Of a DNA stretch of 64,000 bases, positions 21,804 through 42,467 are shown one piece after another. This DNA is from Conexibacter sp. S30A1 (GTDB lineage Bacteria > Actinomycetota > Thermoleophilia > Solirubrobacterales > Solirubrobacteraceae). The position numbers and the translations under genes were made by a program. The stretch is taken from positions 3,224,001-3,288,000 of the forward strand of contig NZ_CP097127.1 in NCBI RefSeq assembly GCF_023330665.1, in the 5' to 3' direction. Position 1 is the first letter of the stretch, and every line of letters starts with the position of its first letter. The notes under the pieces were generated by a model that was not told the origin of the DNA, made no database searches, and saw nothing but the letters and a program-made list of their open reading frames with translations.

Positions 21804-23948
<2,145 letters not shown>

Positions 23949-23966
<18 letters not shown>

Positions 23967-24602
23967 GGCGCGCGGCTCGGCCGCGTCGGGCCGGATCAGG
24001 CGCCAGATCTGTTCCATCACTGCGCTGCGCGGCGGCAGGCGCTCCTCGCCACCGAGGTGCATCTGCCGCCGCACGACGCGGGCGAAGCTCGTGTCGATCA
24101 CCAACATGGCGACGACCCGTGGGTCGAAGCCTGCGCCGAGTCGGCCGGCCTGCTGCTGGGCTCGCAGGTAGGCGCTGATCGCCTCAACCCCCTTGTGCGG
24201 GCCAAGGTCCTTGGCCTCGATATAGCGGGCGACGGCCTCCTTGAGGTCGGGGTCTGACTGGGCCGCGTGCAGGATCGGGAGCACGTCGTCAAAGAACTGC
24301 TCGAGCCGGTCTGCCGCGCGCTCGAGCACGCTCATCGGCTCGCGCGCGTCGGACTCCTCCACGCCCACCAGAAACAGCGGTCTCATGCCGCACTCGAAGA
24401 TCGCCTCCAGCAAGCCGTTGCGGTCGTGGAAGTGGTAGTAGACGCTCGCGTCTGAGACGCCGGCGCGCGATGAGATCTCGCGGCTTGTCAGGTGTGCGAT
24501 CCCCTGTTCGCGCAGGACCGTGAGCGCGGCGTCGAGGATCGCCTCGCGGCCGCCGGTCGGTGGCCGGCCCCTGCGCCTGGGTTGTTCGTCCGTGTCGGTC
24601 AT
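23949..24602 (-). CDS. TetR-family transcriptional repressor
   Basis: 217 residues. A typical TetR N-terminal helix-turn-helix ([34 protein letters not shown]) follows a basic arm ([10 protein letters not shown]); the C-terminal helical domain would bind the inducer. It is divergent from the drug exporter at 24718, and two matching CTGAG-N6-CTCAG sites lie in the shared promoter region, so it most likely represses the exporter and itself. Confidence 0.92.
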
Positions 24603-24642
24603 CGCTCGCCGGACGGAGCCTAGCTGGTCGCCAGCACACTTT

Positions 24643-24658
24643 CTGAGCGGCAGCTCAG
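24643..24658. promoter_or_regulatory. Probable TetR operator 1
   Basis: Inverted repeat CTGAG-N6-CTCAG, preceded by TT, in the 115-base gap between the divergent TetR and exporter genes. The same arrangement recurs 31 bp further on, about three helical turns away. Confidence 0.65.
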
Positions 24659-24673
24659 CGTCCGAGTGATATT

Positions 24674-24689
24674 CTGAGCGCGAACTCAG
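24674..24689. promoter_or_regulatory. Probable TetR operator 2, overlapping a -10-like box
   Basis: Second CTGAG-N6-CTCAG inverted repeat, also preceded by TT. A TATTCT hexamer (24670-24675) that could serve as the exporter's -10 box overlaps its left edge, so a bound repressor would block the promoter. Confidence 0.65.
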
Positions 24690-24717
24690 TTAAATGACCT
24701 AGAACTGGAGCTCGCGG

Positions 24718-27719
<3,002 letters not shown>

Positions 27720-27735
27720 TTCCGCGCCCCCGCGC

Positions 27736-27778
27736 GCCCCCGCGCGCCCTGAAGCGCGCCTGCAGGGCACGCGGGGGC
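27736..27778 (+). terminator. GC-rich hairpin terminator after enolase
   Basis: A 16-bp stem (left arm 27736-27751, right arm 27763-27778) with one mismatch and an 11-base loop, 16 bases after the eno stop. No U-tract follows, as is common in high-GC actinobacteria. It separates eno from the next operon. Confidence 0.65.
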
Positions 27779-27794
27779 ACCTGTGATACGTTTG

Positions 27795-27925
27795 TCGCGT
27801 CAGATGGAGTCCTGACGCGAGTGCCGGGCGCCGACAGGCGCAGGACACCCCGAACCGCCCAGGCTTGGAACAAGGGTTGATGGCTCCTTTCGCAGTGATC
27901 CGCATGTCACTTGACGCGAAAGGAG
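27795..27925 (+). promoter_or_regulatory. Structured leader with SD-sequestering hairpin, candidate cis-regulatory RNA
   Basis: Four consecutive pairable elements precede the nine-gene operon: a perfect 9-bp stem TCGCGTCAG/CTGACGCGA (27795-27803 with 27812-27820); a hairpin GCGCC-GACA-GGCGC extended by GTGCC/GG(A)CAC; a CTTG-GAA-CAAG hairpin extended by AACC/GGTT; and a perfect 10-bp stem CTCCTTTCGC/GCGAAAGGAG (27884-27893 with 27916-27925). The last one hides the AAGGAG ribosome-binding site of the first gene. This layout suggests translational control by a riboswitch, thermosensor or protein. I match it to no known riboswitch class. Confidence 0.6.
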
Positions 27926-27937
27926 TAGGTAGCCGCG

Positions 27938-29569
27938 GTGCCGACGCTTCCCGACTGGGCGCTTCAGGTCCTCCAGGTGCTCGTCATCCTGGTGATGGCG
28001 CCGCTTGTCACGGGGATCATCGCCCGGGCTGAGGCGATCATCCAGCAGCGCCGCGGGCCGCGGATCCTGCAGCCCTACTACGACATCCTCAAGCTGCTGC
28101 AGAAGGAGACCGTGCTGCCGGAGCCGGCCGGGCCGGTGTTCCGCGCCGCCCCGTATGTGAGCTTTGCGGCGTATGCGACCGTGCCGCTGCTGATCCCGGT
28201 GCTCACGACCTTCCCGCTGCCGCTCGGTTACATGGCCGACTTCTTCGGCGTGGGCATGATCCTCGCGTTGGCCAGCTGGGTTGTTTCGATCGCCGCGGTG
28301 GACAGCGGCAGCCCCTACGCGCAGCTCGGCTCGAGCCGCCTGCGTTCCTTCGGCGCGTTCAACGAGCCGACCGTGATCTTCGTGACCTTCGTGCTGGCGC
28401 TCACGACGCACACCGACCTGCCCTACGCCTTCGGGGCGACGATCCGCTCGGCGACGGTCCAGGTCTTCAGGCCCAGTCACCTGCTGATGCTCGCGGCCTT
28501 CTTCATGCTGGTGCTGAACGAGACCGGGCGCATCCCGGTTGAGAACCACGGTGGCACGCTCGAGTTCGGCCAGATCGACGAGGGCCGGGTGGCAGAGCAC
28601 TCCGGGCCCGGGCTCGCATTCCTGCGCTGGGGCGCGAGCGTCAAGCAGCTTCTGCTGTTCACGATCCTGATGAACGTGCTGGTCGTCCCCTGGGGCATGG
28701 CCGCCACCGGCAACCTCGGCTCGGTGCTGATCGCGATCGGCCTGCTGTTCTGTAAGGCGCTCGCGGTCGGGGCGGTGGTGGTGGTGATCGAGTCGAGCTT
28801 CGCCAAGCTGCGGCTCTACAAGATCCCCGAGTTCACGGTCGCGAGCTTCCTGCTCGCGGTGCTGGCGGTCCTGGTCTTCCTCTTCGAGCCCGCCTACGGC
28901 GATCTGAAGCTGACCGTGTTCGGGGCGGGCGCGACGATCACCGCCGTGATCGTGCTGCTGCTCGAGTTCGGGCTGCTGCGCTCGCAGGATGTCTGGGAGC
29001 AGCTGCGGCTCTACGCGCTCGGCTCGGTGGTGGTCGCGGCGCTCGCTTTCATAACCGCCGCCACCGGGCACGGCGAGGGCTCGCTGTATGCGCTGGGCGC
29101 GGTCACGATCGGCCTGAAGGCGCTGCTCTTCCCGCTCGGGATCCGCTACATCCTGCGGCGTCTGGACGCCGAGCCGCGCGTGAGCTCCATGATCGGGGTG
29201 CCCTCAGCGATCCTGCTGGCGATCCTCCTGTGCTGCTTTGCGTTCATCGCGCTGGCGCCCGTGCATCTGGGGGCCGAGGCAGCGCTACCGCTATCGGCGC
29301 TGCCGATCGCGGTGGGCGGCGTGCTGGTGGCGTTTTTGTTGATGGTGCTGCGCCCGCATGCGCCCTCGCAACTGCTCGGCTTCCTCGCGCTCGAGAACGC
29401 CGCCACCGTTGCCAGCATCGTGATCGCGCCGGGGCTTCCGATCATCCTCGCGCTGCTCTTGCTCTTCGACGTGCTCGTCGGTGTGCTCGTGTTTGTGGTG
29501 CTGGTGCAGTACCTCGCCATCGAGCGCAGCGCGATCCGCACCGACGCCCTGGACAGGCTGACCGGATGA
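27938..29569 (+). CDS. HyfC-HyfE fusion, complex I-like membrane subunit of Ehr-type complex
   Basis: 543 residues joining two proteins that are separate in E. coli. Residues 1-315 match HyfC/HycD (NuoH-like): RRGPRILQPYYDILKLLQKE, and NETGRIPVENHGGTLEF where HycD has its conserved E-x-x-RIPVD loop. From about 320 it matches HyfE (NuoK-like): LGAVTIGLKALLFPLGIRYI and LLGFLALENAATVASIV. It is the first gene of the operon (GTG start, AAGGAG 12 bases upstream inside a stem-loop). HyfC/NuoH-type subunits couple redox or conformational change at the peripheral arm to ion pumping. Thirteen or more helices expected. Confidence 0.85.
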   Translation: MPTLPDWALQVLQVLVILVMAPLVTGIIARAEAIIQQRRGPRILQPYYDILKLLQKETVLPEPAGPVFRAAPYVSFAAYATVPLLIPVLTTFPLPLGYMADFFGVGMILALASWVVSIAAVDSGSPYAQLGSSRLRSFGAFNEPTVIFVTFVLALTTHTDLPYAFGATIRSATVQVFRPSHLLMLAAFFMLVLNETGRIPVENHGGTLEFGQIDEGRVAEHSGPGLAFLRWGASVKQLLLFTILMNVLVVPWGMAATGNLGSVLIAIGLLFCKALAVGAVVVVIESSFAKLRLYKIPEFTVASFLLAVLAVLVFLFEPAYGDLKLTVFGAGATITAVIVLLLEFGLLRSQDVWEQLRLYALGSVVVAALAFITAATGHGEGSLYALGAVTIGLKALLFPLGIRYILRRLDAEPRVSSMIGVPSAILLAILLCCFAFIALAPVHLGAEAALPLSALPIAVGGVLVAFLLMVLRPHAPSQLLGFLALENAATVASIVIAPGLPIILALLLLFDVLVGVLVFVVLVQYLAIERSAIRTDALDRLTG

Positions 29570-31092
29570 GCTGGGCGCTCTACACGATCCTCGCCGTGCC
29601 GCTCGCCGCGACCCTGGCGAGCCTGCTTCCCGACTGGCGCCTGGCTCGGGCGGTGACGGTGATCGCGGGCCTCTTCGCGCTCGGCGTCGCGATCGCGATC
29701 GCGATCAGGGTGAGCCACGGCCGCGTGTTTGACACCGCCGCCGGCTGGCTGCGGGTCGATTCGCTGGGCGCCGTGTTCCTGCTGGCCACCGCTTTCGTAT
29801 ATGCGATGGCGGCGGTGTTCTCGGTCGGCTACATCGGCGTGGAGCGCGCAGGCGCCGGCTTTGGCTGGTTTGCCAGACGCTACTTCTCGCTGCTGAACCT
29901 GTTCGGCGCGGTGATGCTGCTGGTGCCGCTGGCGTCTGACTTTGGCGTGCTGTGGGTGGCGGTCGAGCTGACCACGATCGTCTCCGCGCTGCTGGTCGCG
30001 ATCGACCGCACCGACGGGGCGCTCGAGGCCGCCTGGAAGTACGTGCTGATCGCCTCGAGCGGTCTGGGCATCGCGCTGCTGGCCGTGATCGTCATCTATG
30101 CGACCGGCACCCAGGCGCTCGGTAGCGCCTACATCCCGCGCTTCACCCGCCTGATCGCCCACGCACACACGCTGAGCCCCGACGCTGTGAAGCTCGCGTT
30201 CGTGCTGGCGGTCGTCGGCTTCGGCACCAAGGTCGGCTTCGTGCCGATGCACACCTGGCTGCCCGACGCGCACAGCGAGGCACCCGCGCCCGCCTCGGCG
30301 ATGCTGTCAGGCTCGCTGCTGGCGGCGGCGCTATACGCGATCCTGCGTTTCTTTCAGGTTGCCGTCGCCAACGGTGACCGCGCGTTCGCCCAACACGTGC
30401 TGATCGTCTTCGGCGCGATCTCGCTGATCGCAGCGAGCTTCTTCGTGCTGCGCCAGGGCAACTTCAAGCGGCTGCTCGCCTACTCATCGATCGAGCACAT
30501 GGGCATCATCGCGCTCGGGATCGGCTTCGGCGTGCCGCTCGCGGTCGCGGGCGCGCTATTGCACGTGATCACCCACGCCTCCACCAAGGCGCTCGCCTTC
30601 CTGGGCACCGGCTCGCTGCTGCGCGGCTACGGCACCAAGGAGGTTGAGCACGTGCGTGACGCGGGCCGGCGCATGCCGTGGACGGGGCCGATGTTCATGG
30701 CCGGGACGCTCGCGCTCTGCGGGCTGCCGCTCTCCGGCGTGTTTCGCAGCGAGTTTGAGATCGTCACAGGCGGGTTTCAGGCCGCCCAGTACGTCGGTGT
30801 CACGCTGCTGGTGGTGTTCGTGAACGTCGCCTTCTTCGGCGTGATCTGGCACAGCTCGAGCATGGTCATCGGCCGCGACCCGGCTGCGGCGTCCGCGCAG
30901 CCTGGCGGCGGGCCGGCGGGCGCTTTGCCCGTTGCGGGCGGCCCGCTGGCCGCCCGCGAACGCAGCGCGTGGATGGTCGCCGGCATGCTCGGCTGCCTGG
31001 TGGTGGTCGTCGGGCTCGGCGTGCACCTGCCCGGCGACCTGGTGGCGCTGCTCGATAGCGCCCGCCACCGACTGGAGGTACCGGGCGCATGA
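29566..31092 (+). CDS. HyfF-like antiporter subunit (NuoM/MrpD family)
   Basis: 508-residue integral membrane protein of the proton-translocating antiporter family shared by complex I, Mrp antiporters and group 4 hydrogenases. Ion-path residues are kept: glutamate in LWVAVELTTIVSALL, lysine in VGFGTKVGFVPMHTWLPDAH, and lysine in HASTKALAFLGTG, so it looks competent to move H+ or Na+. Starts with ATGA overlap on the HyfC-HyfE stop. The Ala/Gly/Pro-rich stretch near residue 450 looks like a flexible loop. Confidence 0.9.
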   Translation: MSWALYTILAVPLAATLASLLPDWRLARAVTVIAGLFALGVAIAIAIRVSHGRVFDTAAGWLRVDSLGAVFLLATAFVYAMAAVFSVGYIGVERAGAGFGWFARRYFSLLNLFGAVMLLVPLASDFGVLWVAVELTTIVSALLVAIDRTDGALEAAWKYVLIASSGLGIALLAVIVIYATGTQALGSAYIPRFTRLIAHAHTLSPDAVKLAFVLAVVGFGTKVGFVPMHTWLPDAHSEAPAPASAMLSGSLLAAALYAILRFFQVAVANGDRAFAQHVLIVFGAISLIAASFFVLRQGNFKRLLAYSSIEHMGIIALGIGFGVPLAVAGALLHVITHASTKALAFLGTGSLLRGYGTKEVEHVRDAGRRMPWTGPMFMAGTLALCGLPLSGVFRSEFEIVTGGFQAAQYVGVTLLVVFVNVAFFGVIWHSSSMVIGRDPAAASAQPGGGPAGALPVAGGPLAARERSAWMVAGMLGCLVVVVGLGVHLPGDLVALLDSARHRLEVPGA

Positions 31093-32573
31093 GTGCCACC
31101 GGCATCGAGCAGCTGCCCGAGTGGCTGCGCGCCGGGCTCGAGCCGGGCGGCGCAGGCGAGCACAGGCTGGCCGTGGACGCCGGCCAGTTCGCCGCTGCGG
31201 TGGACGAGCTGCGCGCCGCGCAGGCGCGCTTCATCACGCTGTTTACGGCGCAGACGCCACGGCCGGCGCTGAGCGCCGTCTTTGCGCTGCAAGGCGAGCT
31301 TCTGCTGTTGCAGGCGCCGCTTGAGGCCGGAGGCGTCCCGGGGCTCGGAGAGCTCGCCGACCGCTGGCCGGCGATCGCCTGGGCCGAGCGTGAGCTGCTC
31401 GAGCGCGAGCCGCACAGCGGCGGCGAGCATCCCCTGACAGGACAGCGCCTGACCGCGCCGGACCCCGACCTGATCGAGCACGAGGTGGCCGGCCTGGATG
31501 TCTTTGCGATCCCCTACGGCCCGGTCCGCTCGGGTGTCTTTGAGGCGATCCAGTTTTTGATCGAGACCGGCGGCGAGGACGTCATGCGCGTGCACACCCG
31601 CCCGTTCTTCAAGCACCGCGGCATGGAGGCGCGCTTCGCGGGCCTCGCCCCCGATGTGGGGGTGCACGTGGCCGAGCGGGTGGCGGGGATCGCAAGCGTC
31701 GCCTACGCGTGTGCGTTCTCCCATGCCGTCGAGCGCGCCCTGGGTGTCGAGCCGCCACGCCAGGCGCAGCGCTGGCGGGCGATCCACTGCGAGCTGGAGC
31801 GCATGGCCTGCCACCTGGACGTGATCGCCAAGGAGGCCGAGACCACTGCGCTGTATGTCGGCCAGGCACGCTTTCAGATCCTCAAGGAGAGCGTGCAGCG
31901 GCTGCGCGTGCGGCTGTCCGGCAGCCGCTTTGGCCGCGGTGTGGTCGTGCCCGGCGGGGTGCGCGGCGAAGCCGGGCTCAGCACGGGGGAGTTGATCAAC
32001 GCGATTGATGCGATCGAGCGCGAGCTTCAGCGCGACCGCCGGCTGTTTTTGAAGACCAGCTCGATGACCGACCGGCTGATCGGCACCGGTCGGCTGGAGC
32101 GCCGACTGGTCGAGCGCCACTGCGCCGTCGGTCCGCTGGCGCGCGGGTCCGGGCTCTCCACCGACGCCCGGCACGAGCGCCCCTACGACGACTACCGGCG
32201 GCTCGGTCTGCGGGTCGTGACGATGCGCGAGGGGGACGCGATGGCGCGCATCAACGTCCGCTTCGGCGAGCTGTTTGAGTCGCTGCGGCTGATCCGCCAA
32301 CTCGCCGGGCATCTCGGGCGGGGAGCGCGAGATCTCTCGGTGCCGCTGCCCAAGCGGGGCAGCGGCACCGCCTGCGGCTGGGCCGAGGCGCCACAGGGCG
32401 AGCTGCTCTTCTGGGTCGAGCTGCACGAGGGCCTCGTCCACCGTGTGCACATCGCCTCGCCGTCGCTGCGCAACTGGGCGCTCTTTGATCACGCCTTCCC
32501 CAGGGACGTGCTGACCGACTTCGTCTTTATCGAGCACAGCTTCGGGCTTACGCCGGCGGGGGCCGATCGCTGA
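31089..32573 (+). CDS. HyfG-like large subunit lacking all NiFe ligands (Ehr-type)
   Basis: 494 residues: a NuoC-like N-terminal region (about 1-125) fused to a NuoD/hydrogenase-large-subunit region. Family landmarks remain (FFKHRGMEARFAG near 174, CELERMACHLDVI, RASGxxxD-like ARGSGLSTDARHERPYDDY, GFAEAP-like GWAEAPQGELLFW). The NiFe site is gone: the N-terminal CGIC is A199-G-I-A202, and the C-terminal DPCYSC is replaced by TPAGA just before the stop. A lone Cys208 lies nearby. It cannot bind a standard NiFe centre, so it is not a hydrogenase catalytic subunit. No downstream maturation protease site is expected. Confidence 0.85.
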   Translation: MSATGIEQLPEWLRAGLEPGGAGEHRLAVDAGQFAAAVDELRAAQARFITLFTAQTPRPALSAVFALQGELLLLQAPLEAGGVPGLGELADRWPAIAWAERELLEREPHSGGEHPLTGQRLTAPDPDLIEHEVAGLDVFAIPYGPVRSGVFEAIQFLIETGGEDVMRVHTRPFFKHRGMEARFAGLAPDVGVHVAERVAGIASVAYACAFSHAVERALGVEPPRQAQRWRAIHCELERMACHLDVIAKEAETTALYVGQARFQILKESVQRLRVRLSGSRFGRGVVVPGGVRGEAGLSTGELINAIDAIERELQRDRRLFLKTSSMTDRLIGTGRLERRLVERHCAVGPLARGSGLSTDARHERPYDDYRRLGLRVVTMREGDAMARINVRFGELFESLRLIRQLAGHLGRGARDLSVPLPKRGSGTACGWAEAPQGELLFWVELHEGLVHRVHIASPSLRNWALFDHAFPRDVLTDFVFIEHSFGLTPAGADR

Positions 32574-33340
32574 TGCTCGAGTGGATCTATCGGGGCCTTG
32601 GCAAGCGCAGGATCACCACCCGGTATCCGCGGGTCCCCGAGCCCGCCCCCGAAGGCTTTCACGGCAGGATCGATGTTGTAAGCGGCGAGCCGGTCCCGCC
32701 CGCGCTCGCCGAGCTGTGCCCGACCGGCGCGATCGCCGTTGACAACGCCGGGAGCGTGTCGCTTGACCGTGGCCGCTGCATCCTCTGCGGCGAGTGCGTC
32801 CGCGCGCTGCCTCAAGTGTTCGCGTTCGCCTCCGTGTATGAGAGCGCCGCAGGCTCCCGGCAGGCGCTGCTCACCGGTCCCGGCGCTGACCAGGCCTCTG
32901 CCGAGCCGGGCCGCGGAGCGCTCGCAGACCAGGCCGCGATGCTGCGCCGCTCGATCCATGTGCGCCACATCGACTGCGGCTCCGACGGGGCCGAGGAGTG
33001 GGAGATCACCGCGCTGTGGAACCCCTACTACGACATCCAGCGCCTCGGCTTCTTTCTCACCAACTCCCCCAGACACGCCGACGTGCTGCTTGTGACCGGG
33101 CCGGTCACCGACCCGATGCGCGCGCCGCTAGAGCGCACCTGGGAGGTGATGCCGCAGCCCAAAGCACTGGTGGCGGTCGGCACCGACGCCTGTGGCGGCG
33201 GGCTACACGACTGGGGTGGGGTTGACCGGATCCTGCCGGTTGACGTGTACGTGCCGGGCTCCCCGCCCGCGCCGATCGCGATCATGCACGGCCTGCTGTT
33301 GGCGGCCGGGATCCTGACGGCGGGACAGGTGATGGCGTGA
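32573..33340 (+). CDS. Ferredoxin-HyfI fusion, small subunit lacking N2-type cluster ligands
   Basis: 255 residues. The N-terminal 80 form a reduced ferredoxin domain with C49 (LCPTGAI) and C69/C72/C75 (CILCGEC), enough for one [4Fe-4S] cluster. Residues 125-250 match HyfI/HycG/NuoB (NSPRHADVLLVTGPVT, LPVDVYVPGSPPAP). The four cysteines that bind the proximal/N2 cluster are replaced: CNGC becomes D138-G-A-E141, the third becomes D205 (with C207 two residues on) and PGCPP becomes PGS230PP. Electron transfer to the large subunit by the usual route is therefore not possible. ATG shares a base with the upstream stop. Confidence 0.85.
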   Translation: MLEWIYRGLGKRRITTRYPRVPEPAPEGFHGRIDVVSGEPVPPALAELCPTGAIAVDNAGSVSLDRGRCILCGECVRALPQVFAFASVYESAAGSRQALLTGPGADQASAEPGRGALADQAAMLRRSIHVRHIDCGSDGAEEWEITALWNPYYDIQRLGFFLTNSPRHADVLLVTGPVTDPMRAPLERTWEVMPQPKALVAVGTDACGGGLHDWGGVDRILPVDVYVPGSPPAPIAIMHGLLLAAGILTAGQVMA

Positions 33341-35316
33341 GCGCGTTGTACCGGGTCGCGATGGGCACGCTCGCGCTGGCGGTGCTGCTGGCGTGGTTCG
33401 GTCCGCCTCGCTGGCGCGAGCGCCTCGGAGCACTGTCCTCCGCCGTCGGGTGCGTGCTGCTCGTGATCGTCGGCCTGGCGGCGGCGCTTGGTGGTGCGGC
33501 GCCGGTCGTTGACCTCGGCTCCTGGCTCGCCTTCGGGCACAGCGCCCTGCGCGCCGACGGCCTTTCAGGAATCTTCCTGGCGCTCACCGGGGTCACCGGC
33601 GCCGCGGTCTCGCTCGCCTACACGGAGCTGCCCGCCGGGCGCTGGCTGACCACGCTCGCCAGCGCGCTGGTGCTCTTCATCGCGGTCGCGATCGGCGCTG
33701 ACAACGGCTTTCTGTTCTTCCTGGCCTGGGAGGCGATCACACTCTGCGTGTACCTGATCGCAAGCGCCGGTGAGACCCGCGAGGACTTCATCGGTGGCTA
33801 CCTCACCGGCGGACTTGCGAAGCTCGGCGGCGCCGCGCTGCTCATCGCCTTCGCGCTGCTCTACGCGCACACGCACAGCTTCTCGATCGAGGTCTGGCGC
33901 CACGCCCACCTCTCGGCGGGAACGCGGGATGTGCTCTTTGCGCTGTTTCTGATCTGCTTTGCGACCAAGGTCGGGATGCTGCCGTTGCAGGGTGGGCTGC
34001 CCGCCGGCTACAGCGCCGCGCCGAGGCTCGGCGCCGCGTCGCTGTCGGTCGCGCTGTGCGCCGGCTTCTACGGCATCTGGCGCTTTGAGTTCGACGTGCT
34101 CGGCCCGTTGCCGACCGCCTGCGGCGACGCGCTTTTGATCCTGGGTGCGCTCACCGCGGTCAGCGGGATCGCCTACGCGCTGGCCCAGGATGACCTGCGT
34201 CGGTTCTTGGGCTACTCGACCGTCGAGCACGCGGGCATCGCGCTGATCGGCTTTGCGGTGGCGCTGCTCGGGCTGGCCGCCCACGACCGCACGCTGGCGG
34301 CCGCCGGCCTGTTGGCGAGCACGCTGCACGTCTGCGCGCACAACCTCGCCAAGACGCTGGCGCTGATCAGCATCGACCGTGTGGCCCTGGCGAGCGGTGA
34401 GCGCACTCTGGACCCGCTCGGCGGGCTGTCGCGCCGCATGCCGTTCAGCGCCGTGTCGCTGGGGCTGGCGACACTGACCCTGGCGGCGATCCCGCCGCTC
34501 GGCGGGTTCGTCAGTGAGTGGTTCACCTTCCAGGCGCTGCTGCAGGCCTTCCGGATGCCGACGTTGCTCTCCAGGCTGCTGTGTGCGCTCGCCGCCGCGA
34601 CGCTCGCGCTGACCGCCGGGCTCGGTCTGCTCGCCTTCGCGAAGTACTACAGCTTCATCTTCCTGGGGCGCGCGCGCGAACGGCTCTCGCACCTGCGCGA
34701 GCCCTCGCGCTGGCCGCTCGGCGCCGGCGCGCTCGCGGTCGTCGTCCTGTTCCTCGGCACCGTGGCGCCGTGGGAGATCCACGCGATCGGGTCGGGCCTG
34801 GCGCCCGAGCTTGGTTTCAACCTCGCGAGCACCACGATCAGCCACCCGCTGGTGCTGACCCCGGTGTTCAAAGGCTTTGCGGTGCTCGACCCGACCTGGC
34901 TCAGCCTGGTGCTGCCGCTCTACGCGGTGCTCGCGGCGCTGATCGCACTTGGCGGCGACCGTCGCCGGCGCGTGCGCCGCGCGCCGGTGTGGGTCACCGG
35001 CAGCGGCGCCCGGCTGCCCGCGGTTCAGTACCGGCCTTCGGCCTACTCAAACCCGATGCGCGTGATCCTGCGCGGCCCGCTCGGCTTCCACACCCGCGTG
35101 CGCACCGCGGGCGAGGATGAGGCGGTCGAGCCCTACGTGCGTGAGGCCCGCGTCGTGTTCGCGGTCGACCGCTTCCTCTACCGGCCCGCGACGAACCTGG
35201 CTCTGCGCGTGGCTGCGCGCGTGCGCGCCACCCAGTCCGGGCGTCTGTCCGCCTACCTTCTCTACATGCTCGTCGCGCTCTTGGCTGCCCTGTCCCTGAT
35301 CCCCATACTGCACTGA
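33337..35316 (+). CDS. HyfB-like antiporter subunit (NuoL family)
   Basis: 659-residue membrane protein of the NuoL/HyfB type. Glutamate in FLAWEAITLCVYLI and lysines in CFATKVGMLPLQGGLP and CAHNLAKTLALI are conserved, although the usual HxWLPxAH after the second is changed to QGGLPAGYS. The C-terminal 100 residues are hydrophilic and basic and end in one last helix, as in HyfB. GTG start overlaps the previous stop (GTGA). With HyfF and HyfE it would make up the ion-translocating membrane arm. Confidence 0.88.
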   Translation: MSALYRVAMGTLALAVLLAWFGPPRWRERLGALSSAVGCVLLVIVGLAAALGGAAPVVDLGSWLAFGHSALRADGLSGIFLALTGVTGAAVSLAYTELPAGRWLTTLASALVLFIAVAIGADNGFLFFLAWEAITLCVYLIASAGETREDFIGGYLTGGLAKLGGAALLIAFALLYAHTHSFSIEVWRHAHLSAGTRDVLFALFLICFATKVGMLPLQGGLPAGYSAAPRLGAASLSVALCAGFYGIWRFEFDVLGPLPTACGDALLILGALTAVSGIAYALAQDDLRRFLGYSTVEHAGIALIGFAVALLGLAAHDRTLAAAGLLASTLHVCAHNLAKTLALISIDRVALASGERTLDPLGGLSRRMPFSAVSLGLATLTLAAIPPLGGFVSEWFTFQALLQAFRMPTLLSRLLCALAAATLALTAGLGLLAFAKYYSFIFLGRARERLSHLREPSRWPLGAGALAVVVLFLGTVAPWEIHAIGSGLAPELGFNLASTTISHPLVLTPVFKGFAVLDPTWLSLVLPLYAVLAALIALGGDRRRRVRRAPVWVTGSGARLPAVQYRPSAYSNPMRVILRGPLGFHTRVRTAGEDEAVEPYVREARVVFAVDRFLYRPATNLALRVAARVRATQSGRLSAYLLYMLVALLAALSLIPILH

Positions 35317-35765
35317 TGTTTCAACGAATCCTGCTTGCCTGGGACGGCTCAGAGGTCGCGCTGCGCGCCTTTGACGCCGCCATCGATCTCACCCGCCGCT
35401 ACGACGCCGAGCTGGTCGCCGTCTCGGTCGCCTACTCGCCCGCGCACGCGGAGACCGCCGCCGATCGCGCGGAGACAGCGCAGGCCGCGCACCGCTACCT
35501 CACCGGGTCCTTTGAGGAGGTTGCCGACCGCGCGCACCGCGCCGGCGTGCAGGTCAGCCACCAGATCATCGAGGGCGATGATCCCGCACAGGCTCTGCTT
35601 GCGCACTGTCACACGCACGGCTTTGACCTGATCGTCGCCGGTCACCATCGCGCGGGCCGCGCGGGCCGGCTGCTGCTCAAGGGCGTGGTGCCCGCGCTGA
35701 TCGAGAACGGCGCGCCGGTCCTGGTGGTCGGTGACTACGAGTACGGCGGCTCACGGGGCGCATGA
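35316..35765 (+). CDS. Universal stress protein (UspA family)
   Basis: 149 residues with the UspA alpha/beta fold: FQRILLAWDGSEVALRAFDAA at the N-terminus and the nucleotide-binding-type GHHRAGRAGRLLLKGVV plus PVLVVG near the C-terminus (family consensus G-x2-G-x9-G(S/T)). It may bind ATP. Its ATG shares a base with the HyfB stop and its stop overlaps the first crcB, so it is embedded in the complex/fluoride-channel operon. Confidence 0.88.
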   Translation: MFQRILLAWDGSEVALRAFDAAIDLTRRYDAELVAVSVAYSPAHAETAADRAETAQAAHRYLTGSFEEVADRAHRAGVQVSHQIIEGDDPAQALLAHCHTHGFDLIVAGHHRAGRAGRLLLKGVVPALIENGAPVLVVGDYEYGGSRGA

Positions 35766-36157
35766 GCGGCCTGGACAGGCGGGAGCTTTCGGCGATCTTC
35801 GCCGGGGGCGCGATCGGCGCGCTCGTGCGCGTGTGGCTCAGCCAGCGCTTCACGCAGGGCGATACCTCCTGGCCGTGGACGATCTTTGCGATCAACGTCA
35901 GCGGCTCGTTCTTGCTCGCGTACCTGGCGACCCGCCTGCAGGAGCGTCTGCCGCAGTCCACATACCGCCGCCCGGCGCTCGGCACCGGCTTCTGTGGCGC
36001 CTACACCACGTTCTCAACCATGCAGGTGGAGATCGTCAAGATGGCCGTGGCGGGCGACTGGGGGCTGGCTTGTGGCTATGGGTTTGCAAGCCTCAGCGCG
36101 GGCCTTGTGGCTATCTGGCTGGCGTCTGCGATCGTCAGAAGGGCCAGGCTCGCATGA
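35762..36157 (+). CDS. crcB: Fluoride channel CrcB/Fluc, first copy
   Basis: 131 residues, four predicted helices. CrcB motifs: AGGAIGALVRVWLS, FAINVSGSFLLAYL (the conserved asparagine) and GFCGAYTTFSTMQVE. Fluc proteins are dimeric channels that let fluoride leave the cell. A second, divergent CrcB follows immediately with ATGA overlap, as in Gram-positive bacteria where two different subunits pair. Confidence 0.92.
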   Translation: MSGLDRRELSAIFAGGAIGALVRVWLSQRFTQGDTSWPWTIFAINVSGSFLLAYLATRLQERLPQSTYRRPALGTGFCGAYTTFSTMQVEIVKMAVAGDWGLACGYGFASLSAGLVAIWLASAIVRRARLA

Positions 36158-36519
36158 GCTGGTGGCTGTGGCTTGCGGTGGCGGCGATCGGCGGGGCAGG
36201 GGCGGTGGTCAGGTTCGTGACCGACGCGGTGATCTCCGGGCGCTTCGGGCGTGACTTTCCGCTGGGGACGCTCGCGATCAATTTGAGCGGCGCGCTCGTG
36301 CTCGGCTTCCTGTCGGGGGTGGGGGCGGTCGGCGAACTCGACCTGCTGGCGGGCACGGCGCTCATCGGCTCCTACACGACGTTCTCAACCTGGATGCTCG
36401 AGAGCTACCGGCTGGCCGAGGACGCGGAGCCATGGCCGGCCGTGGTCAACGCGGTGGCCAGTCTGCTGCTCGGGTTCGCCGCGGCGCTGCTCGGACGTGC
36501 GATCGGACGCTCGATATGA
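36154..36519 (+). CDS. crcB: Fluoride channel CrcB/Fluc, second copy
   Basis: 121 residues with four helices. AIGGAGAVVRFVTDAV, LAINLSGALVLGFLSG and LIGSYTTFSTWMLES carry the CrcB signature, including the Asn and the Phe/Thr-rich pore motif. It differs clearly from the first copy, consistent with a heterodimer partner rather than a recent duplicate. Start ATG 36154 overlaps the first crcB stop; its own stop overlaps the DUF190 gene (ATGA). Confidence 0.92.
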   Translation: MSWWLWLAVAAIGGAGAVVRFVTDAVISGRFGRDFPLGTLAINLSGALVLGFLSGVGAVGELDLLAGTALIGSYTTFSTWMLESYRLAEDAEPWPAVVNAVASLLLGFAAALLGRAIGRSI

Positions 36520-37601
36520 ACGAGGACTGCCTGAAGTTGACCACCTACTTCGGTGAGCGTGACCGCACCGAGGCGGGCCGGCTGCTCGCCGACGAGCTGA
36601 TGGACATCTACGGTGCCCACCGGCTGGCCGCAAGCGTCCTGCTGCGCGGCGCCGAGGGGTTCGGGCGTCTTCACCACCTGCACACCGACCGTCAGCTCAC
36701 CTCCTCGGAGGATCTGCCGGTCGTCTCGGTCGCCGTCGATGAGCGCGCGCGGATCGAGCAGGTGCTCGGAACGGTGCTCGCGGTCAAGCGCCGTGGGCTG
36801 GTCACGCTTGAGCGCGCGCGGCTCACTTCGGGTGAGATCGGCCGCGTTGAGCTGCCGGAGGAGCTCGGCGAGGCGACCAAGCTGACCGTGTATGTGGGCA
36901 GGGGGGAGCGGGTCGGTGGCGCCCCGGCGCATCTGGCGATCTGTGAGCTGCTGCAGCGCCGGGGAGTTGCGGGCGCAAGCGTGCTGCTCGGCGTCGACGG
37001 CACCCGCGGCGGTCTGCGCGCCCGCGCCAAGTTCTTTGCACGCAACGCCGATGTGCCGATGATGGTCATCGCGGTCGGTGCAGGCGAGCGCATCGCGGCC
37101 GTGCTGCCCGAGATCGGGGGCCTGCTCGAGCAGCCGCTTTTGACGCTCGAGCGCGTGCGCATCTGCAAACGCGACGGCGAGCTGCTCGCCACGCCGCGCG
37201 AGCTGCCCGGCGCAGACGAGCACGGCCTCGCGCTCTGGCAGAAGCTGATGATCTACAGCTCCCACAACGCCACCGGCGCACACGGACGTCCGCTTCACCT
37301 GGAGATCATTCACCGGCTGATGCACGACAGCGAGGCAGCCGGCGCGACCGTCCTGCGCGGCATCTGGGGCTTTCACGGCGAGCACGCCGCGCACGGTGAC
37401 CGCTTCTTTCAGGTCCGCCGTCACGTCCCGGTCACCACGATCGTGATCGACCGACCCGAGCGGATCGCCCGCTCCTTTCAGATCATCGACGAGATCACCT
37501 CGGAGCACGGCCTGGTCACCAGCGAGCTGGTCCCCGCTGCCCAGGCGATGAGCGAGCAGGAGACGCGCGGCGGATTACGGCTGGCGCGCCACCGGCTCTG
37601 A
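36516..37601 (+). CDS. Triple DUF190-domain protein, CrcB-associated
   Basis: 361 residues made of three DUF190 units, each about 110 residues and normally a stand-alone protein. Unit 1 from DCLKLTTYFGERDR (about 4-105), unit 2 from TKLTVYVGRGERVGG (about 120-225), unit 3 from QKLMIYSSHNATGAHG (about 240-345). Each contains the G(A/V)xGASVLLRG-like strand (GAHRLAASVLLRGAEG, GVAGASVLLGVDG, GATVLRGIWGFHG). DUF190 is structurally related to PII signalling proteins and often accompanies crcB; function is unknown. A regulator or sensor of the channels is a fair guess. Last gene of the nine-gene operon. Confidence 0.85.
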   Translation: MNEDCLKLTTYFGERDRTEAGRLLADELMDIYGAHRLAASVLLRGAEGFGRLHHLHTDRQLTSSEDLPVVSVAVDERARIEQVLGTVLAVKRRGLVTLERARLTSGEIGRVELPEELGEATKLTVYVGRGERVGGAPAHLAICELLQRRGVAGASVLLGVDGTRGGLRARAKFFARNADVPMMVIAVGAGERIAAVLPEIGGLLEQPLLTLERVRICKRDGELLATPRELPGADEHGLALWQKLMIYSSHNATGAHGRPLHLEIIHRLMHDSEAAGATVLRGIWGFHGEHAAHGDRFFQVRRHVPVTTIVIDRPERIARSFQIIDEITSEHGLVTSELVPAAQAMSEQETRGGLRLARHRL

Positions 37602-37610
37602 GGCGAGCGT

Positions 37611-37626
37611 GGCGGCGGCCGCCGCC
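37611..37626. terminator. Candidate hairpin between convergent DUF190 and usp genes
   Basis: A self-complementary 16-base run of GGC/GCC units, able to form a 6-bp stem with a four-base loop, nine bases after the DUF190 stop. A second short hairpin (GGCGCC-TTC-GGCGCT) follows near 37647. Either could end transcripts from both sides; there is no T-run. Confidence 0.35.
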
Positions 37627-37667
37627 CGCCCCGGACGCCGTCCTGGCGCCTTCGGCGCTCACGCCGA

Positions 37668-38150
37668 TCAGATGACCGTCACGCTCCACTCGCCGAGCTG
37701 CCGCAGGCGCGCGGCGGCGGATGCTCCACGACGCCACCCCAGGCCGTGGCGGGGCAGCACGATCAGGTCCGGGCGGACGCGCCCAGCGATCTGGGCGACG
37801 GCGCTCACGGCCGGTTCCTCAGCCACCTCGAAGCTGACGCGGGGACCGTCTCCGATCAGCGCCTGCGCCCGTGCCAGCCGTTCGGAGGCGATCTCGTCAA
37901 GGTGCTGATTCCACAGCGCCGCGCCCTGCCGGCAGTGCCCACAACCCACGTCGCCGCGCTCGCGGCGCACCAGCTCAACCACGGTCAGCTGCGTGTCCCG
38001 GGCGAGCGCGGCGTCCGCGGCCCAGCGCAGGGCAGCACGGCCGCCGCGCGAAAGGTCGCACACGGCGAGCACGCCCTTTTCGGTGTGCTCTGAGGAGCTG
38101 GCCGCGGCTCGTCCTTCAGTCTCCGGTGTGATCTGCATGCAGGGATACAT
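37668..38150 (-). CDS. Universal stress protein-like, diverged
   Basis: 160 residues with the UspA pattern: VLAVCDLSRGGRAALRWAADAA at the start of the fold and [22 protein letters not shown] near the C-terminus in place of the G-x2-G-x9-G(S/T) nucleotide loop. Cysteines in CDLS and GCGHCRQ are unusual for the family and a CxxC could be redox-active or bind metal. Start could be 38150 or the ATG four codons in (38138). It is convergent with the operon that contains another Usp gene. The 189 bases upstream hold nothing I can identify. Confidence 0.7.
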   Translation of the reverse strand: MYPCMQITPETEGRAAASSSEHTEKGVLAVCDLSRGGRAALRWAADAALARDTQLTVVELVRRERGDVGCGHCRQGAALWNQHLDEIASERLARAQALIGDGPRVSFEVAEEPAVSAVAQIAGRVRPDLIVLPRHGLGWRRGASAAARLRQLGEWSVTVI

Positions 38151-38339
38151 TGTGCTGCAGTTCGCAGGCCTGAAGGAAGTTCTGCCGCAGCTCGCTGCGC
38201 GTCGCGCTTGACGGCGGCAGCAGCGAGCCCGGCCAGCACCGTGACGCCCGCCTGCTCAAGCACGCGCAACCGGGCGTATGCCGAGCATCTCGGCGTGACC
38301 TGCATCGGAGTGGGGGCTGGGCAGCCGGTGTGCGCTCCG

Positions 38340-38525
38340 CTACCGCTGCGGGGTACCGAGCGACCGCGCGCCCGAGCCGGGGAGCCTGATCCGCTCGGCC
38401 AGCTTGTCGGCCGCGTCCTTGATCCTGCGCGACGCGTCGTTCAGGCGCTTGCCGCGGGCGGATGTGTCGCCTGGGGGCGGTTCCTGCACCTGGTCGTCAG
38501 CCTCATCGGCGCCATGTGTGGTCAT
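38340..38525 (-). CDS. Small charged hypothetical protein (61 aa)
   Basis: A perfect AGGAGG (38531-38536) lies five bases before an ATG that overlaps the debranching-enzyme stop (ATGA), strong support for translation. The product is hydrophilic: an acidic N-terminal half (GADEADDQVQEPP) and a basic, probably helical C-terminal half (KRLNDASRRIKDAADKLAER). No signal peptide, cysteine or known domain is seen. It is the last gene of the glycosyltransferase/debranching unit; function unknown. Confidence 0.65.
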   Translation of the reverse strand: MTTHGADEADDQVQEPPPGDTSARGKRLNDASRRIKDAADKLAERIRLPGSGARSLGTPQR

Positions 38526-40525
38526 GTGTTCCTCCTGTGGGTTTTGTTGTGAATGGTGATCTTTCCCATCGCGCCCGTCTGGTCGGTCTGGGCGTCGGTG
38601 TAGCCGGGCTCGAGCCCGAGCAGCGTGGTCAGCAAAAGCAGCGGGGTCCCCGCCGCCCACGCCTGCGGTCGCGACGCGGTCGGGAACCTGACGGGGACGG
38701 AGGCGAGCGCCAGCGGAAAGCCGGCGAAGACCTCGGGCAGCCGGTTCTCGAAGTAGGGCGCGGCGGCCAGCACCGTGGCTGCGATCGTGGCCGCGGCCTC
38801 CGTGTGGCCGTAGCGTGCAAGCCCCGCGGCGATCAGCGAGTTGTCATGTGGCCAGACGGTTCCGGTGTGGTAGCCGAGTGGGTTGTAACCGGCCTCACCC
38901 GAGCCCAGCGTGCGCACGCCCCAGCCCGAGTAGAGCTCTGAGTCAAGCAACCGCCCGGCCACGGCCGCCGCCTGGCCGGTGTCGAGGATTCCCGACCAGA
39001 GCAGGTGGCCGATGTTCGAGCTCAAGGAGTCCACCTGGCGCTTGTGGCCGTCGAGCGCGAGCGCGGGAAAGCCCCGCTCCGGCATCCAGAAGTCGTGTGC
39101 GAAGCGTGCCTGCAGCTCCTTTGACTGGCGCTCGAGGCGCTCGGCGAGCTGCGGGTCCTTCCAGACCTCGCGCGCGAGCCGGGCGCTGCGGCGCCGCGCG
39201 TCGTAGACGTAGCCCTGGATCTCGCAGGTGGCGATCGGCCCGGTGGCCATCGTGCCGTCCGCGAACTGGATCGAGTCCCAGCTGTCCTTCCAGCACTGGT
39301 TGACGAGACCCGTGGTGGGGTTGCGCGACGCGTACTCCACGTAGCCGTCGCCATCCAGATCGCCGCTGCGCTCGATCCACTCAAGCGCCCCAAGGGCGTT
39401 GGGCTCCAGCTCGCGCACCAGCGTGTCATCCCCGGTCCAGCGGTGGTACTCGTCCAGCAGCACCAGGAACAGCGGGGTGGCGTCGGCGCTCCCGAAGTAG
39501 GGGGAGTGTGGCCGCTCGCCGCGGGCGGTGAGCTCGCCGAAGCGGAGCTCGTGCAGGATCTTGCCGGGCTCCTGGTCGTGGAAGTCGTCGCGCACGGTCC
39601 CCTGGCGGGCGGCCAGCACACGCAGCGTCGTCGCGGCGAGCCCCGGCAGGTACGGCAGCGCCTGGAAGCTCGTGATCAGGCTGTCGCGCCCGAAGAGCGC
39701 CATGAACCACGGCAGCCCGGCGGCGGGCATCGTCGCCCCGGCGCCGATGTCGGGGTGCAGTCGCAGCGCCGCCAGGTCGGTGAGGCTCGCCCGGTACGTG
39801 CGGGCCAGCTCCGGGTCCTCGGCTTCCAGGGCCGGCACACCGGAGAGCCAGCTGTCAAGCTCGGCCGACTTGGTCTCAAGCAGGCGCGTGAGCGTCGCGC
39901 GCGGCCGGCGCCTTGGAAAGGTGGCTCCGGGCTGCGCGCCCGACGGTGAGACCGTGAAGCTCGTGGACCAGCGCTCACCCGGTTTCATCGTCAGATCGAA
40001 CGCGAAGCCCGTGCGGGTGATCGCCGCCGGGCGGGTGCTCGAGCTGACCGTCACCGAGCGGCTGAAGCCGTCGCGCTCATAGGCGAGGGTCAGCGCCGAG
40101 TCCGTGTGCGTGAAGTCGATCCCGCGGGTCGCGATCGCCCCGTCCTTGACCTCGAAGAGGTCGGCGAAGTCGGTGTCCACGGCGAGCGTGAGATGCAGAA
40201 CACTGGTCTGGTGGCGGTGGTTGGTCAGCACGATCTCCTCGATCCAAACGTGGTCGACGAGGCGGTGACGCACGAGCGAGCACGGCGCCTGCTGATCGGG
40301 TCGGACCCGCGGGGTCAGGAAGAACTGGGCGTCAAAGTGTGCGCTCTGATCGAGGCTCAACAGCTCAAGGGGGGTATCGCCCACGCTCAGCACCCAGCGC
40401 GAGATGAAGCGTGTGTCATCCGAGTAGAAGCCGTGCTCGGAGCCGTCGTCGGCACGCACGTCGCCGAGTCGGTCACCGATCACGAACGTGCTCCCGTCGA
40501 GCACGCTGAGCGGTTGATCAGACAC
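38522..40525 (-). CDS. Amylo-alpha-1,6-glucosidase / glycogen debranching-type enzyme
   Basis: 667 residues. N-terminal beta-rich GDE_N-type domain (SEHGFYSDDTRFISRWVL) and C-terminal (alpha/alpha)6 barrel with LPWFMALFGRDSLITSFQ, GDLDGDGYVEY and GTVWPHDNSLIAAGLARYG, as in actinobacterial amylo-1,6-glucosidases. It would trim alpha-1,6-linked or related glucans/glycosides in the cytoplasm. GTG 40525 is chosen because it overlaps the glycosyltransferase stop (GTGTCTGA). Operon: glycosyltransferase, this gene, small protein. Confidence 0.82.
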   Translation of the reverse strand: MSDQPLSVLDGSTFVIGDRLGDVRADDGSEHGFYSDDTRFISRWVLSVGDTPLELLSLDQSAHFDAQFFLTPRVRPDQQAPCSLVRHRLVDHVWIEEIVLTNHRHQTSVLHLTLAVDTDFADLFEVKDGAIATRGIDFTHTDSALTLAYERDGFSRSVTVSSSTRPAAITRTGFAFDLTMKPGERWSTSFTVSPSGAQPGATFPRRRPRATLTRLLETKSAELDSWLSGVPALEAEDPELARTYRASLTDLAALRLHPDIGAGATMPAAGLPWFMALFGRDSLITSFQALPYLPGLAATTLRVLAARQGTVRDDFHDQEPGKILHELRFGELTARGERPHSPYFGSADATPLFLVLLDEYHRWTGDDTLVRELEPNALGALEWIERSGDLDGDGYVEYASRNPTTGLVNQCWKDSWDSIQFADGTMATGPIATCEIQGYVYDARRRSARLAREVWKDPQLAERLERQSKELQARFAHDFWMPERGFPALALDGHKRQVDSLSSNIGHLLWSGILDTGQAAAVAGRLLDSELYSGWGVRTLGSGEAGYNPLGYHTGTVWPHDNSLIAAGLARYGHTEAAATIAATVLAAAPYFENRLPEVFAGFPLALASVPVRFPTASRPQAWAAGTPLLLLTTLLGLEPGYTDAQTDQTGAMGKITIHNKTHRRNT

Positions 40526-41720: not shown

Positions 41721-41930
41721 TCAAGCTCCCGTCTGCCTCTCAGGCAGGTCGCTCGCGAGGTAGAGAGGTCGAAAGGACCAGGAGAGCGCTGGACTTCACT
41801 TCTCTGGCGACGCGAAGAACCACGTTGAGCATACCAGTCGTATCCATAAATCCGACCGCTGTGGTCGGGATAGAAGCGTGCGCCATCCCCGCGCTGCGCG
41901 CGTCTGCGATCCGGCGGGCTGCTGCTAAGA

Positions 41931-41946
41931 TGCTTGCTGGCAAGCA
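41931..41946. promoter_or_regulatory. Probable MarR operator
   Basis: Perfect palindrome TGCTTGC-TG-GCAAGCA, 51 bases upstream of the marR start, of the size MarR dimers bind. The 276-base gap between the divergent glycosyltransferase and marR genes is otherwise plain. Confidence 0.6.
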
Positions 41947-41996
41947 AATAAATACCGGCGCTCGCGTAGTGGGAGCGATCGGGTTGAAGGGGCGGC

Positions 41997-42467
41997 ATGA
42001 CACGGATCGCGGAAGCAGAGCAGCAGGTGCAGGCCGATGTGGCCCAGCGCCTGCGCAGGGTGGTGGGCCACCTGACGCGGCTTCTGCGCCCGGTGGACGC
42101 GACCCTCGCCGCCGATCTCACGCCCACCCGCACGGCGGTCCTGCTCAACACGGTGCGCAACGGCCGGGCGCGGCTTGCCGACGTGGCTGAGCAGGAGGGC
42201 CTCAATCCGACGCTGCTCTCGCGCACGCTCGCGACCCTGGCGGAGGACGGCCTGGTCGAGCGCTTCCCCGATCCCGATGACCGGCGCGTCGCCTGGGTTG
42301 CGCCGACGCCCGCCGGCCGCCGCCTCGCCCAGCGCATCCGCGCGCAGCGCACGGCCGCCCTGCACGATGCGCTCGCCGGTCTGAGCGACGCTGAGCGCCA
42401 CCGGATCGAGGCCGCCCTGCCCGCGCTCGAGCGCCTCGTCGAGCACTTCACCCAGGAGTCCGCATGA
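41997..42467 (+). CDS. MarR-family transcriptional regulator
   Basis: 156 residues with a winged helix: LADVAEQEGLNPTLLSRTLA as recognition region and DPDDRRVAWVAPTPAGRRLA as wing. ATG overlaps nothing upstream; its stop overlaps the MFS gene (ATGA), the usual MarR-exporter pairing. It most likely represses both genes through the palindrome at 41931-41946 until a ligand binds. Confidence 0.92.
   Translation: MTRIAEAEQQVQADVAQRLRRVVGHLTRLLRPVDATLAADLTPTRTAVLLNTVRNGRARLADVAEQEGLNPTLLSRTLATLAEDGLVERFPDPDDRRVAWVAPTPAGRRLAQRIRAQRTAALHDALAGLSDAERHRIEAALPALERLVEHFTQESA

Follow-up and report, generated by a model that had tools for sequence, protein, structure and literature searches.

A putative fluoride riboswitch in front of an Ehr-like complex without NiFe or proximal-cluster ligands in Conexibacter sp. 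S30A1

The window analysed here is a 64,000-nucleotide stretch of the Conexibacter sp. S30A1 genome (contig NZ_CP097127.1, positions 3,224,001 to 3,288,000, forward strand). Five overlapping genes at 27938–35316 of the window encode a complex related to group 4 hydrogenases and to respiratory complex I, and a predicted aptamer of the fluoride-riboswitch class stands in front of them. We consider it very probable that the operon is under fluoride control, and this regulation by a fluoride-type switch is our main new result. The complex is almost certainly not a hydrogenase: the NiFe ligands are absent from its large subunit HyfG, and its small subunit HyfI carries D138, E141, D205 and S230 in place of the four cysteines of the proximal cluster, a state which the alignments indicate to be conserved and not an accident. 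The reading that we favour, with a probability of about 0.5, is that the complex is a translocator of protons or cations, induced by fluoride, that runs on protonation or ion binding and not on electrons.

Results

Relatives of the complex

Relatives were collected from 396 genomes of the phylum, from one scan of named genomes, and from 251 genomes of the phylum of locus L104. The scan used the patterns LTDF[AV]F[IM]E and F[THA][ILM]PYGP[VI]R and contributed 80 loci, the best 80 of 91. The choice of patterns biases the conservation of Y143, R147, T476 and E482 in these 80 loci; the states of the ligands and of the aptamer were not used for selection. The sample was picked by similarity to the window and includes near-identical loci (L040/L103, L041/L095, L037/L074). 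Complexes of the window's kind are referred to as D-type, and small-subunit types are written as the residues at the four ligand positions.

A predicted fluoride-type aptamer and its expression platform

The flanks of related loci held genes for enolase, CrcB, DUF190 and universal stress protein (USP), and we therefore searched for fluoride riboswitches. Rfam gave no match to RF01734, or to any known cis-acting RNA, in positions 22000–42000 of the window at E ≤ 1. A family model, R1, was built from 23 aptamers of relatives, which exclude the window and include members that Rfam recognises. R1 finds the aptamer listed in Table 1 with 28.6 bits and E = 5.1e-8, the next match in the window having E = 0.18, and the same position is the best match over the whole genome (E = 2.8e-6). 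A second genomic match, at C1:1889867–1889933 (22.3 bits), lies inside a long open reading frame and was taken as false.

The Rfam model itself recognises aptamers of relatives. It scores above its cut-off on 5 of the 13 loci tried (L057, L064, L069, L072, L080), and gives 50.6 bits, for a cut-off of 34, to the upstream aptamer of Actinocatenispora comari (L116; position mapped by hand). A search of genomes, which covered carriers only (50 of the 80 carrier genomes), found RF01734 at E ≤ 0.01 in 46/50 and above the cut-off in 35/50. The four genomes without a match are those of L085, L098, L115 and L125, and R1 places an aptamer upstream of the complex in the first three.

Over 100 loci, R1 gave 144 matches at E ≤ 0.1. 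The tally of upstream aptamers used 141 of these and the window, leaving out three with E > 0.01 (L094 3474, L095 1–30 and L125 6469); an aptamer was counted as upstream if it lay on the same strand and no more than 450 nt before HyfC, at loci whose upstream sequence spans 200 nt or more. On this definition, 59 of the 62 complexes whose small subunit has no ligand cysteine (no-Cys complexes) have an aptamer before HyfC, 57 at a distance of 16–54 nt and two at 100 and 110 nt. The aptamer is some 0.8–0.9 kb upstream in two of the three exceptions, L069 and L071, and the third, L125, has a weak match (E = 0.027). An aptamer also precedes HyfC in all six CCPS complexes, at 336–346 nt, and in L046 and the second complex of L136; it was not found before HyfC in L049 or in the two CCCN complexes. 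In the cluster-keeping Chloroflexota complexes L158, L159, L160, L165 and L183–185, the aptamer adjoins the HyfC frame (positions compared by eye). None of 11 other Ehr-like complexes has an upstream aptamer, in a comparison where the control operons mostly start with a gene other than HyfC; R1 found no match anywhere on L043–045 or L050–056, and none near L005.

The predicted fold is supported by pair changes in 54 upstream aptamers. The second pair of P1 is GC in 33, AT in 15, CG in four, GT in one and TA in one, and the pseudoknot pair between loop position 4 and tail position 13 is AT in 46, GC in seven and GT in one. The P1 candidate was chosen as the best-pairing one, which biases the paired fractions upward and affects the variety of pair types less. 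Both the P1 stem and the loop-to-3′-end pseudoknot show compensatory changes.

The 3′ end of the window aptamer, CTCCTTTCGC, is the exact 10-nt complement of GCGAAAGGAG, and this stem is part of the predicted minimum-energy structure. GCGAAAGGAG holds the Shine–Dalgarno sequence AAAGGAG as ribosome-binding site, 12 nt ahead of the GTG at 27938. An anti-Shine–Dalgarno stem of at least 7 bp (G–U allowed) follows 58 of 64 upstream aptamers, and 57 overlap a ribosome-site-like motif; shuffled downstream sequence gave such a stem in 22%. The platforms of L046 and L037 are terminator-like. We infer that the switch in the window is of the translational ON type, in which fluoride would free the ribosome site and raise translation.

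Loss of the metal sites

Alignment to E. coli HycE places HyfG A199 and A202 at C241 and C244, and T488 and G491 at C531 and C534. Alignment to HycG places HyfI D138, E141, D205 and S230 at C48, C51, C115 and C145. The initial annotation had described both sets of ligands as missing and had named displaced cysteines as a finding that would refute it; the ligand columns align, and the cysteines are lost. Sequencing error or displaced cysteines was ruled out as an explanation by 75 rows in the same state together with the aligned ligand columns. The canopy residues, which had escaped notice, are gone as well: HycE R478 corresponds to Q436 and D529 to G486 of the window. In D-type rows R478 is replaced by Q (71) or H (7) and D529 by G (75) or S (1), and no cysteine occurs at the NiFe positions of HyfG, bar a single one in L087. 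Homology of the core subunits and the missing CxxC motifs of the NiFe site agree with the Ehr-like assignment proposed earlier.

In the first 99 small subunits aligned, 75 are without any ligand cysteine. The first position is D in 75/75 of these, the second E or D in 72/75, the third D or E in 74/75, and the fourth S in 69/75; R177 and H242, which surround the pocket, are invariant in 62 aligned rows. Among the carriers are one Chloroflexi MAG (metagenome-assembled genome), Solirubrobacterales, Acidimicrobiaceae and other actinobacterial MAGs, as well as Aciditerrimonas ferrireducens, Leifsonia aquatica and Actinocatenispora comari. All four cysteines are kept in 10 of the 11 other Ehr-like complexes (L005, L043–045, L050–056), and cluster loss is therefore a special state. 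This settles, for our sample, the earlier question of whether Ehr complexes normally keep the small-subunit ligands: they do, and the loss arose more than once.

The entry "formate hydrogen lyase" appears in published lists of fluoride-riboswitch genes (Weinberg 2010 and a 2024 review; PMC2864571, PMC11139923, accessible parts), and the accessible part of the review explains it by fermentation (PMC11139923). The homology of the subunits to Hyc and Hyf proteins would fit such a name. For the window, a formate hydrogenlyase is hardly credible, and formate hydrogenlyase and hydrogenase were both rejected: the NiFe and proximal-cluster cysteines are lost, no formate dehydrogenase subunit was found among the operon genes (the search covered the operon only), and the genome, 94% complete, yielded no HypD, the one Hyp gene searched for (it was found in 4/14 controls).

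The ferredoxin-type motif of HyfI (C49, C69, C72, C75) is whole, as had been annotated for a single [4Fe-4S] cluster. It is complete in 73 of the 75 no-Cys rows, the other two (L058 and L059) not covering the site, and we take it to be the counterpart of cluster N6b of complex I, the neighbour of N2. In the formate hydrogenlyase of E. coli, the relay distances are consistently below 14 Å per step, with the proximal cluster as one station (PMC9474812, accessible part). This station is gone in the window, so that electrons have no visible route to the HyfG pocket; the initial annotation had come to the same view from the joint absence of the NiFe and proximal-cluster ligands.

It is rather unlikely that the complex is still a redox enzyme, in which the ferredoxin-domain cluster would pass electrons to a new centre, for instance iron or another metal at D138/E141/D205/S230, or a cofactor in the HyfG pocket. 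The retention of the ferredoxin motif would be explained in this way, carboxylates can bind iron, and the names of many carrier MAGs hint at an origin in mine or peat samples. However, we know of no iron–sulfur site formed by four oxygen ligands, the lost station leaves a gap in a relay of such short steps, the NiFe and canopy residues are gone, and the operon contains no donor subunit or dehydrogenase.

Retention of the ion path and proton relay

The ion-path Glu and Lys residues of both antiporter-like subunits are intact, as first annotated, and this holds across the D-type. The Glu of transmembrane helix (TM) 5, the Lys of TM7 and the Glu of TM12 are retained in every D-type row with a letter at the position (65, 65 and 69 rows for HyfF; 70 rows each for HyfB), and HyfC E209, E215 and E220 are kept in 62/62 D-type rows. 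The accessible part of the E. coli structure paper names HycE E193, H284, R395 and E437 as a proton relay (PMC9474812), and all four are unchanged in each D-type row that covers the position (78–79 rows). The aligned residues thus point to a proton side that is retained and an electron side that is lost. At the position of HyfB R288 of the window, 44/47 other complexes carry a lysine; the majority of D-type HyfB rows show S, N, R or G there.

The HyfG pocket residues R147, S148, T476 and E482 are common to the fluoride clade, cluster-keeping members having them in 12, 11, 12 and 12 of 16; other Ehr-like complexes have H, A, P and N at these positions in 16/16. Two of the motifs in this signature doubled as search patterns for the 80 loci.

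The intact antiporter subunits would also suit an Mrp-like antiporter with a dead arm. Its membrane part would exchange H+ for Na+ or K+ under fluoride, the arm would be a scaffold or a single-cluster redox sensor, and the acids would keep the charge balance; with R177 and H242 invariant, they may do no more than stand in for the charge of the lost cluster. Among the genes under fluoride riboswitches, Na+/H+ antiporters rank directly behind exporters in frequency, according to a review (PMC11139923, accessible part). We regard this as a real if doubtful possibility: the invariance of D138 (75/75) and the recurrence of D or E at positions 1 and 3 elsewhere appear to exceed what a filler calls for, and R147, S148, T476 and E482 are conserved too, allowing for the use of two motifs in the search.

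The acidic site on separate branches of the tree

Two trees were built by quick search under LG+G4, with Shimodaira–Hasegawa approximate likelihood-ratio test (SH-aLRT) support only; a tree of the small subunit alone was dropped for having too few columns. The first used HyfC, HyfF, HyfG and HyfB, omitting the small subunit (94 complexes, 1851 columns). In it the D[E/D]DS-type complexes form a single group of 70 rows with SH-aLRT 100, and the CCPS complexes (Rubrobacteraceae and kin) and the DVAT complex (L104) adjoin that group.

The second tree, which likewise left out the small subunit, included Chloroflexota complexes (79 rows, 1801 columns). In it, complexes with acidic replacement fall on five branches apart from one another: the clade of the window; L050 (TCDD); L175–177 with L179–182 (D[A/T/V]DN); L172 with L174 (DADD); and L164, L168, L169 and L171 (DCED, DCES, DTED). 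The separation of the last two hangs on one cysteine-keeping row, L173, with SH-aLRT 94–96. The fewest label changes on this tree are six, with CCPS counted as its own label, and such counts do not distinguish gain from loss of the cluster ligands. A change from Cys to Asp takes two base changes, so single mutations would most easily have given other residues than the D that recurs at positions 1 and 3. In the Chloroflexota complexes L164, L168, L169, L171, L172 and L174 the pattern is reversed, with both large-subunit CxxC motifs kept and the small-subunit cysteines replaced by acidic residues.

The operon and its neighbours

The extended feature runs from the aptamer to the end of the DUF190 gene at 37601, and is longer than the five genes first annotated, whose assignment as Hyf homologues is in agreement with the Pfam and NCBIfam matches (NuoH-like, antiporter subunit, 49-kDa and 20-kDa) in Table 1. 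The USP gene, two CrcB genes and the triple DUF190 gene continue the operon with overlaps of four bases or one base.

Table 1. Positions, strands and identification of features in the window
Feature	Position	Strand	Basis
Enolase, upstream neighbour, not behind the aptamer	26457–27719	+	Translation
Fluoride-riboswitch-type aptamer (predicted), variant P1 stem, CCGAACCGCCC, GGGTTGATGGCTCC	27791–27896	+	Family model R1
Expression platform (predicted), CTCCTTTCGC 27884–27893 with GCGAAAGGAG 27916–27925	27884–27925	+	Sequence, fold, complement
HyfC-HyfE fusion (NuoH-like and HyfE-like)	27938–29569	+	PF00146 E = 6.5e-30; NF008556 E = 2.2e-8 over 346–543
HyfF, antiporter-like subunit	29566–31092	+	PF00361 E = 2.3e-51; E135, K223, K302, H312, K342, E397 retained
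HyfG, large subunit without NiFe ligands and without canopy Arg/Asp	31089–32573	+	PF00346 E = 1.6e-31; AlphaFold2 model pLDDT 90.5
Ferredoxin-HyfI fusion	32573–33340	+	PF01058 E = 2.1e-19; AlphaFold2 model pLDDT 90.6
HyfB, antiporter-like subunit	33337–35316	+	PF00361 E = 1.4e-36; E132, K211, K339, E394 retained
Universal stress protein, start overlapping HyfB stop	35316–35765	+	PF00582 E = 5.1e-21
CrcB/Fluc-type protein 1	35762–36157	+	PF02537 E = 1.2e-25
CrcB/Fluc-type protein 2	36154–36519	+	PF02537 E = 3.9e-22; start 36154 from overlap
Triple DUF190 protein	36516–37601	+	PF02641 E = 1.8e-65, three stretches; start 36516 from overlap

Neighbourhoods were counted at loci of at least 12 kb, with the window included among the D-type. 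A gene for CrcB, DUF190 or enolase is present at 24/62 D-type loci, 5/17 cluster-keeping loci of the fluoride clade and 0/28 other Ehr-like loci, and a USP gene at 37/62, 3/17 and 1/28, respectively; enolase homologues occur at 9/62 D-type loci. Most of the D-type flanks examined show no CrcB, so that the aptamer stands before the complex and not before the channels alone. At L057 an aptamer also stands before the enolase position (3661–3741), where R1 found none in the window, and contig C255 of the same genome (G396) has at least seven fluoride-riboswitch matches, perhaps a large fluoride regulon.

L078 (3998–18865) and L136 (6479–21175) each have two complexes side by side, of which one is D-type with the ferredoxin motif and the second retains all four cluster cysteines, with its ferredoxin motif destroyed; the members of these pairs may complement each other. 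The genome of the window has a second Ehr-like operon (L005 4402–11267; C1:377000–396000) with a large-subunit CxxC twice (RACAAC and ELCYAC). Its small subunit keeps all four cysteines, although HypD was not found in this genome, and HypD was likewise not found in four related genomes with L005-like subunits (G338, G218, G347, G078).

Comparison with known systems

By sequence, the nearest solved structures are those of E. coli formate hydrogenlyase and MBH. The closest relatives of HyfG and HyfI are HycE and HycG of formate hydrogenlyase-1 (HycC, D, E, F, G; PDB 7z0s), as chains 7z0s_E (E = 7.9e-70) and 7z0s_G (E = 6.5e-35), and 7z0s_G is also the best Foldseek match of the HyfI AlphaFold2 model (E = 1.8e-14). 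In contrast to that enzyme, the window complex is without the NiFe and proximal-cluster ligands, the canopy Arg and Asp, and a formate dehydrogenase gene in the operon, and has two antiporter-like subunits and a predicted fluoride-type riboswitch. With complex I (NuoB/D/H/L/M/N) it shares the core fold and the ion path; it differs in the missing N2 ligands, at the quinone site, with R147 where the NuoD of the same genome has H38, and in lacking an NADH module (NuoE, F, G) in its operon, which is present in the separate Nuo operon of the genome. Mrp-type antiporters likewise have antiporter-like subunits with an intact Glu/Lys path, but their small subunits MrpB, C, E, F and G are not among the operon genes of the window, where HyfC, HyfG and HyfI are found instead.

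The accessible parts of the Ehr literature describe group 4-like complexes without NiFe motifs and without an assigned function (PMC6349859, PMC10284858, PMC10432482, PMC4378227, PMC6728331). The window complex resembles them in having the group 4 and complex I core subunits in one operon with both large-subunit CxxC motifs gone, and differs in that conserved acids also replace the proximal-cluster ligands and a fluoride-type aptamer is predicted upstream.

The aptamer shares with RF01734 the core GATG loop, the AACCGCC motif, a 3′ end of the GCTGATGG type and nearby fluoride genes, including two that match the Fluc/CrcB channel family PF02537. It differs in a variant P1, an inserted hairpin and a U in place of C (GGTTGATGG), and falls below Rfam detection; unlike the entry on the published gene lists, its product is not formate hydrogenlyase. 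In the open literature we found no paper that ties fluoride riboswitches to hydrogenase- or complex I-like proteins, and none on an Ehr complex without the small-subunit cluster; subscription papers may note parts of this.

Discussion

The predicted fluoride riboswitch and the channel genes appear to give the complex a setting, that of fluoride or hydrogen fluoride (HF) stress, and a role as an ion machine in fluoride defence is likelier for it than one as a hydrogen enzyme. In the mechanism that we propose, HF leaking into the cell would bring protons along with F−. Binding of fluoride to the aptamer would free the ribosome-binding site and switch on the complex, the stress protein, the two fluoride channels and the DUF190 protein. 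The channels would release F− at the expense of the membrane potential, and the complex would move protons, or protons against a cation, via HyfF, HyfB and HyfC, guarding pH and the proton-motive force. A non-redox coupling site is proposed because no electron path is visible: coupling would take place at D138/E141/D205/S230, the former cluster site, where protonation or cation binding would replace the redox change.

The initial annotation had suggested a conformational or non-redox role. The missing electron path is consistent with that role; the conserved acidic set, the riboswitch and the fluoride-channel genes had been overlooked.

Several observations weigh against the translocator. The Rfam model for RF01734 misses the aptamer in the window and has no match in its genome. 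The cluster persists in near relatives within the fluoride clade (L046, L049, L158–163, L165, L183–185), so its loss is no requirement for fluoride control. The acidic replacement is also found in Chloroflexota complexes that have no strong aptamer in their vicinity (R1 found none for the acidic groups within L164–L182 except a weak one on L177, E = 0.0015), and the acidic site and the fluoride switch are therefore separate traits. A non-redox energy source must be named, as an antiporter only trades one gradient for another, and the retained ferredoxin-domain [4Fe-4S] motif has no known purpose in a non-redox complex.

Fluoride control probably came first in the clade and cluster loss later, which suggests that electron transfer is not essential for the fluoride role.

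Fluoride might also act on the complex directly, as a ligand or substrate: a fluoride-binding metal, Mg2+ or another, would sit at the acidic site as it does in enolase and so gate the complex, or F− would be expelled with H+. Such a role would be in keeping with the direct control by an aptamer (before 59/62 no-Cys complexes), with an Arg in place of His in the pocket (R147, shared by 12/16 cluster-keeping complexes of the fluoride clade), and with the Mg–F form in which enzymes and the riboswitch usually bind fluoride (PMC11139923, accessible part). We consider it quite improbable, given that Chloroflexota complexes that lack aptamers have these acids as well and that CrcB channels already export F−.

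A broader form of the translocator reading is that a complex I-type machine gave up electrons, that protonation of a carboxylate site in the place of the coupling cluster, or the binding there of an ion, perhaps a metal fluoride, powers or controls ion transfer over long distances in a defence induced by fluoride, and that related complexes elsewhere reached the same kind of site independently. Taken as a whole, this is unlikely.

The findings bear on several fields. "Formate hydrogen lyase", among the commonest listed fluoride-riboswitch genes, is here an Ehr-like complex incapable of making hydrogen, and the fluoride field gains a new player. Ehr complexes, which are widespread without an assigned function, gain a testable condition in fluoride and HF. 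For complex I, the family amounts to a natural experiment, in which the coupling machinery and the proton relay are kept and the adjacent electron sites were turned into acids several times; if ion movement can be demonstrated without electrons, it would allow a direct test of where the coupling depends on redox chemistry.

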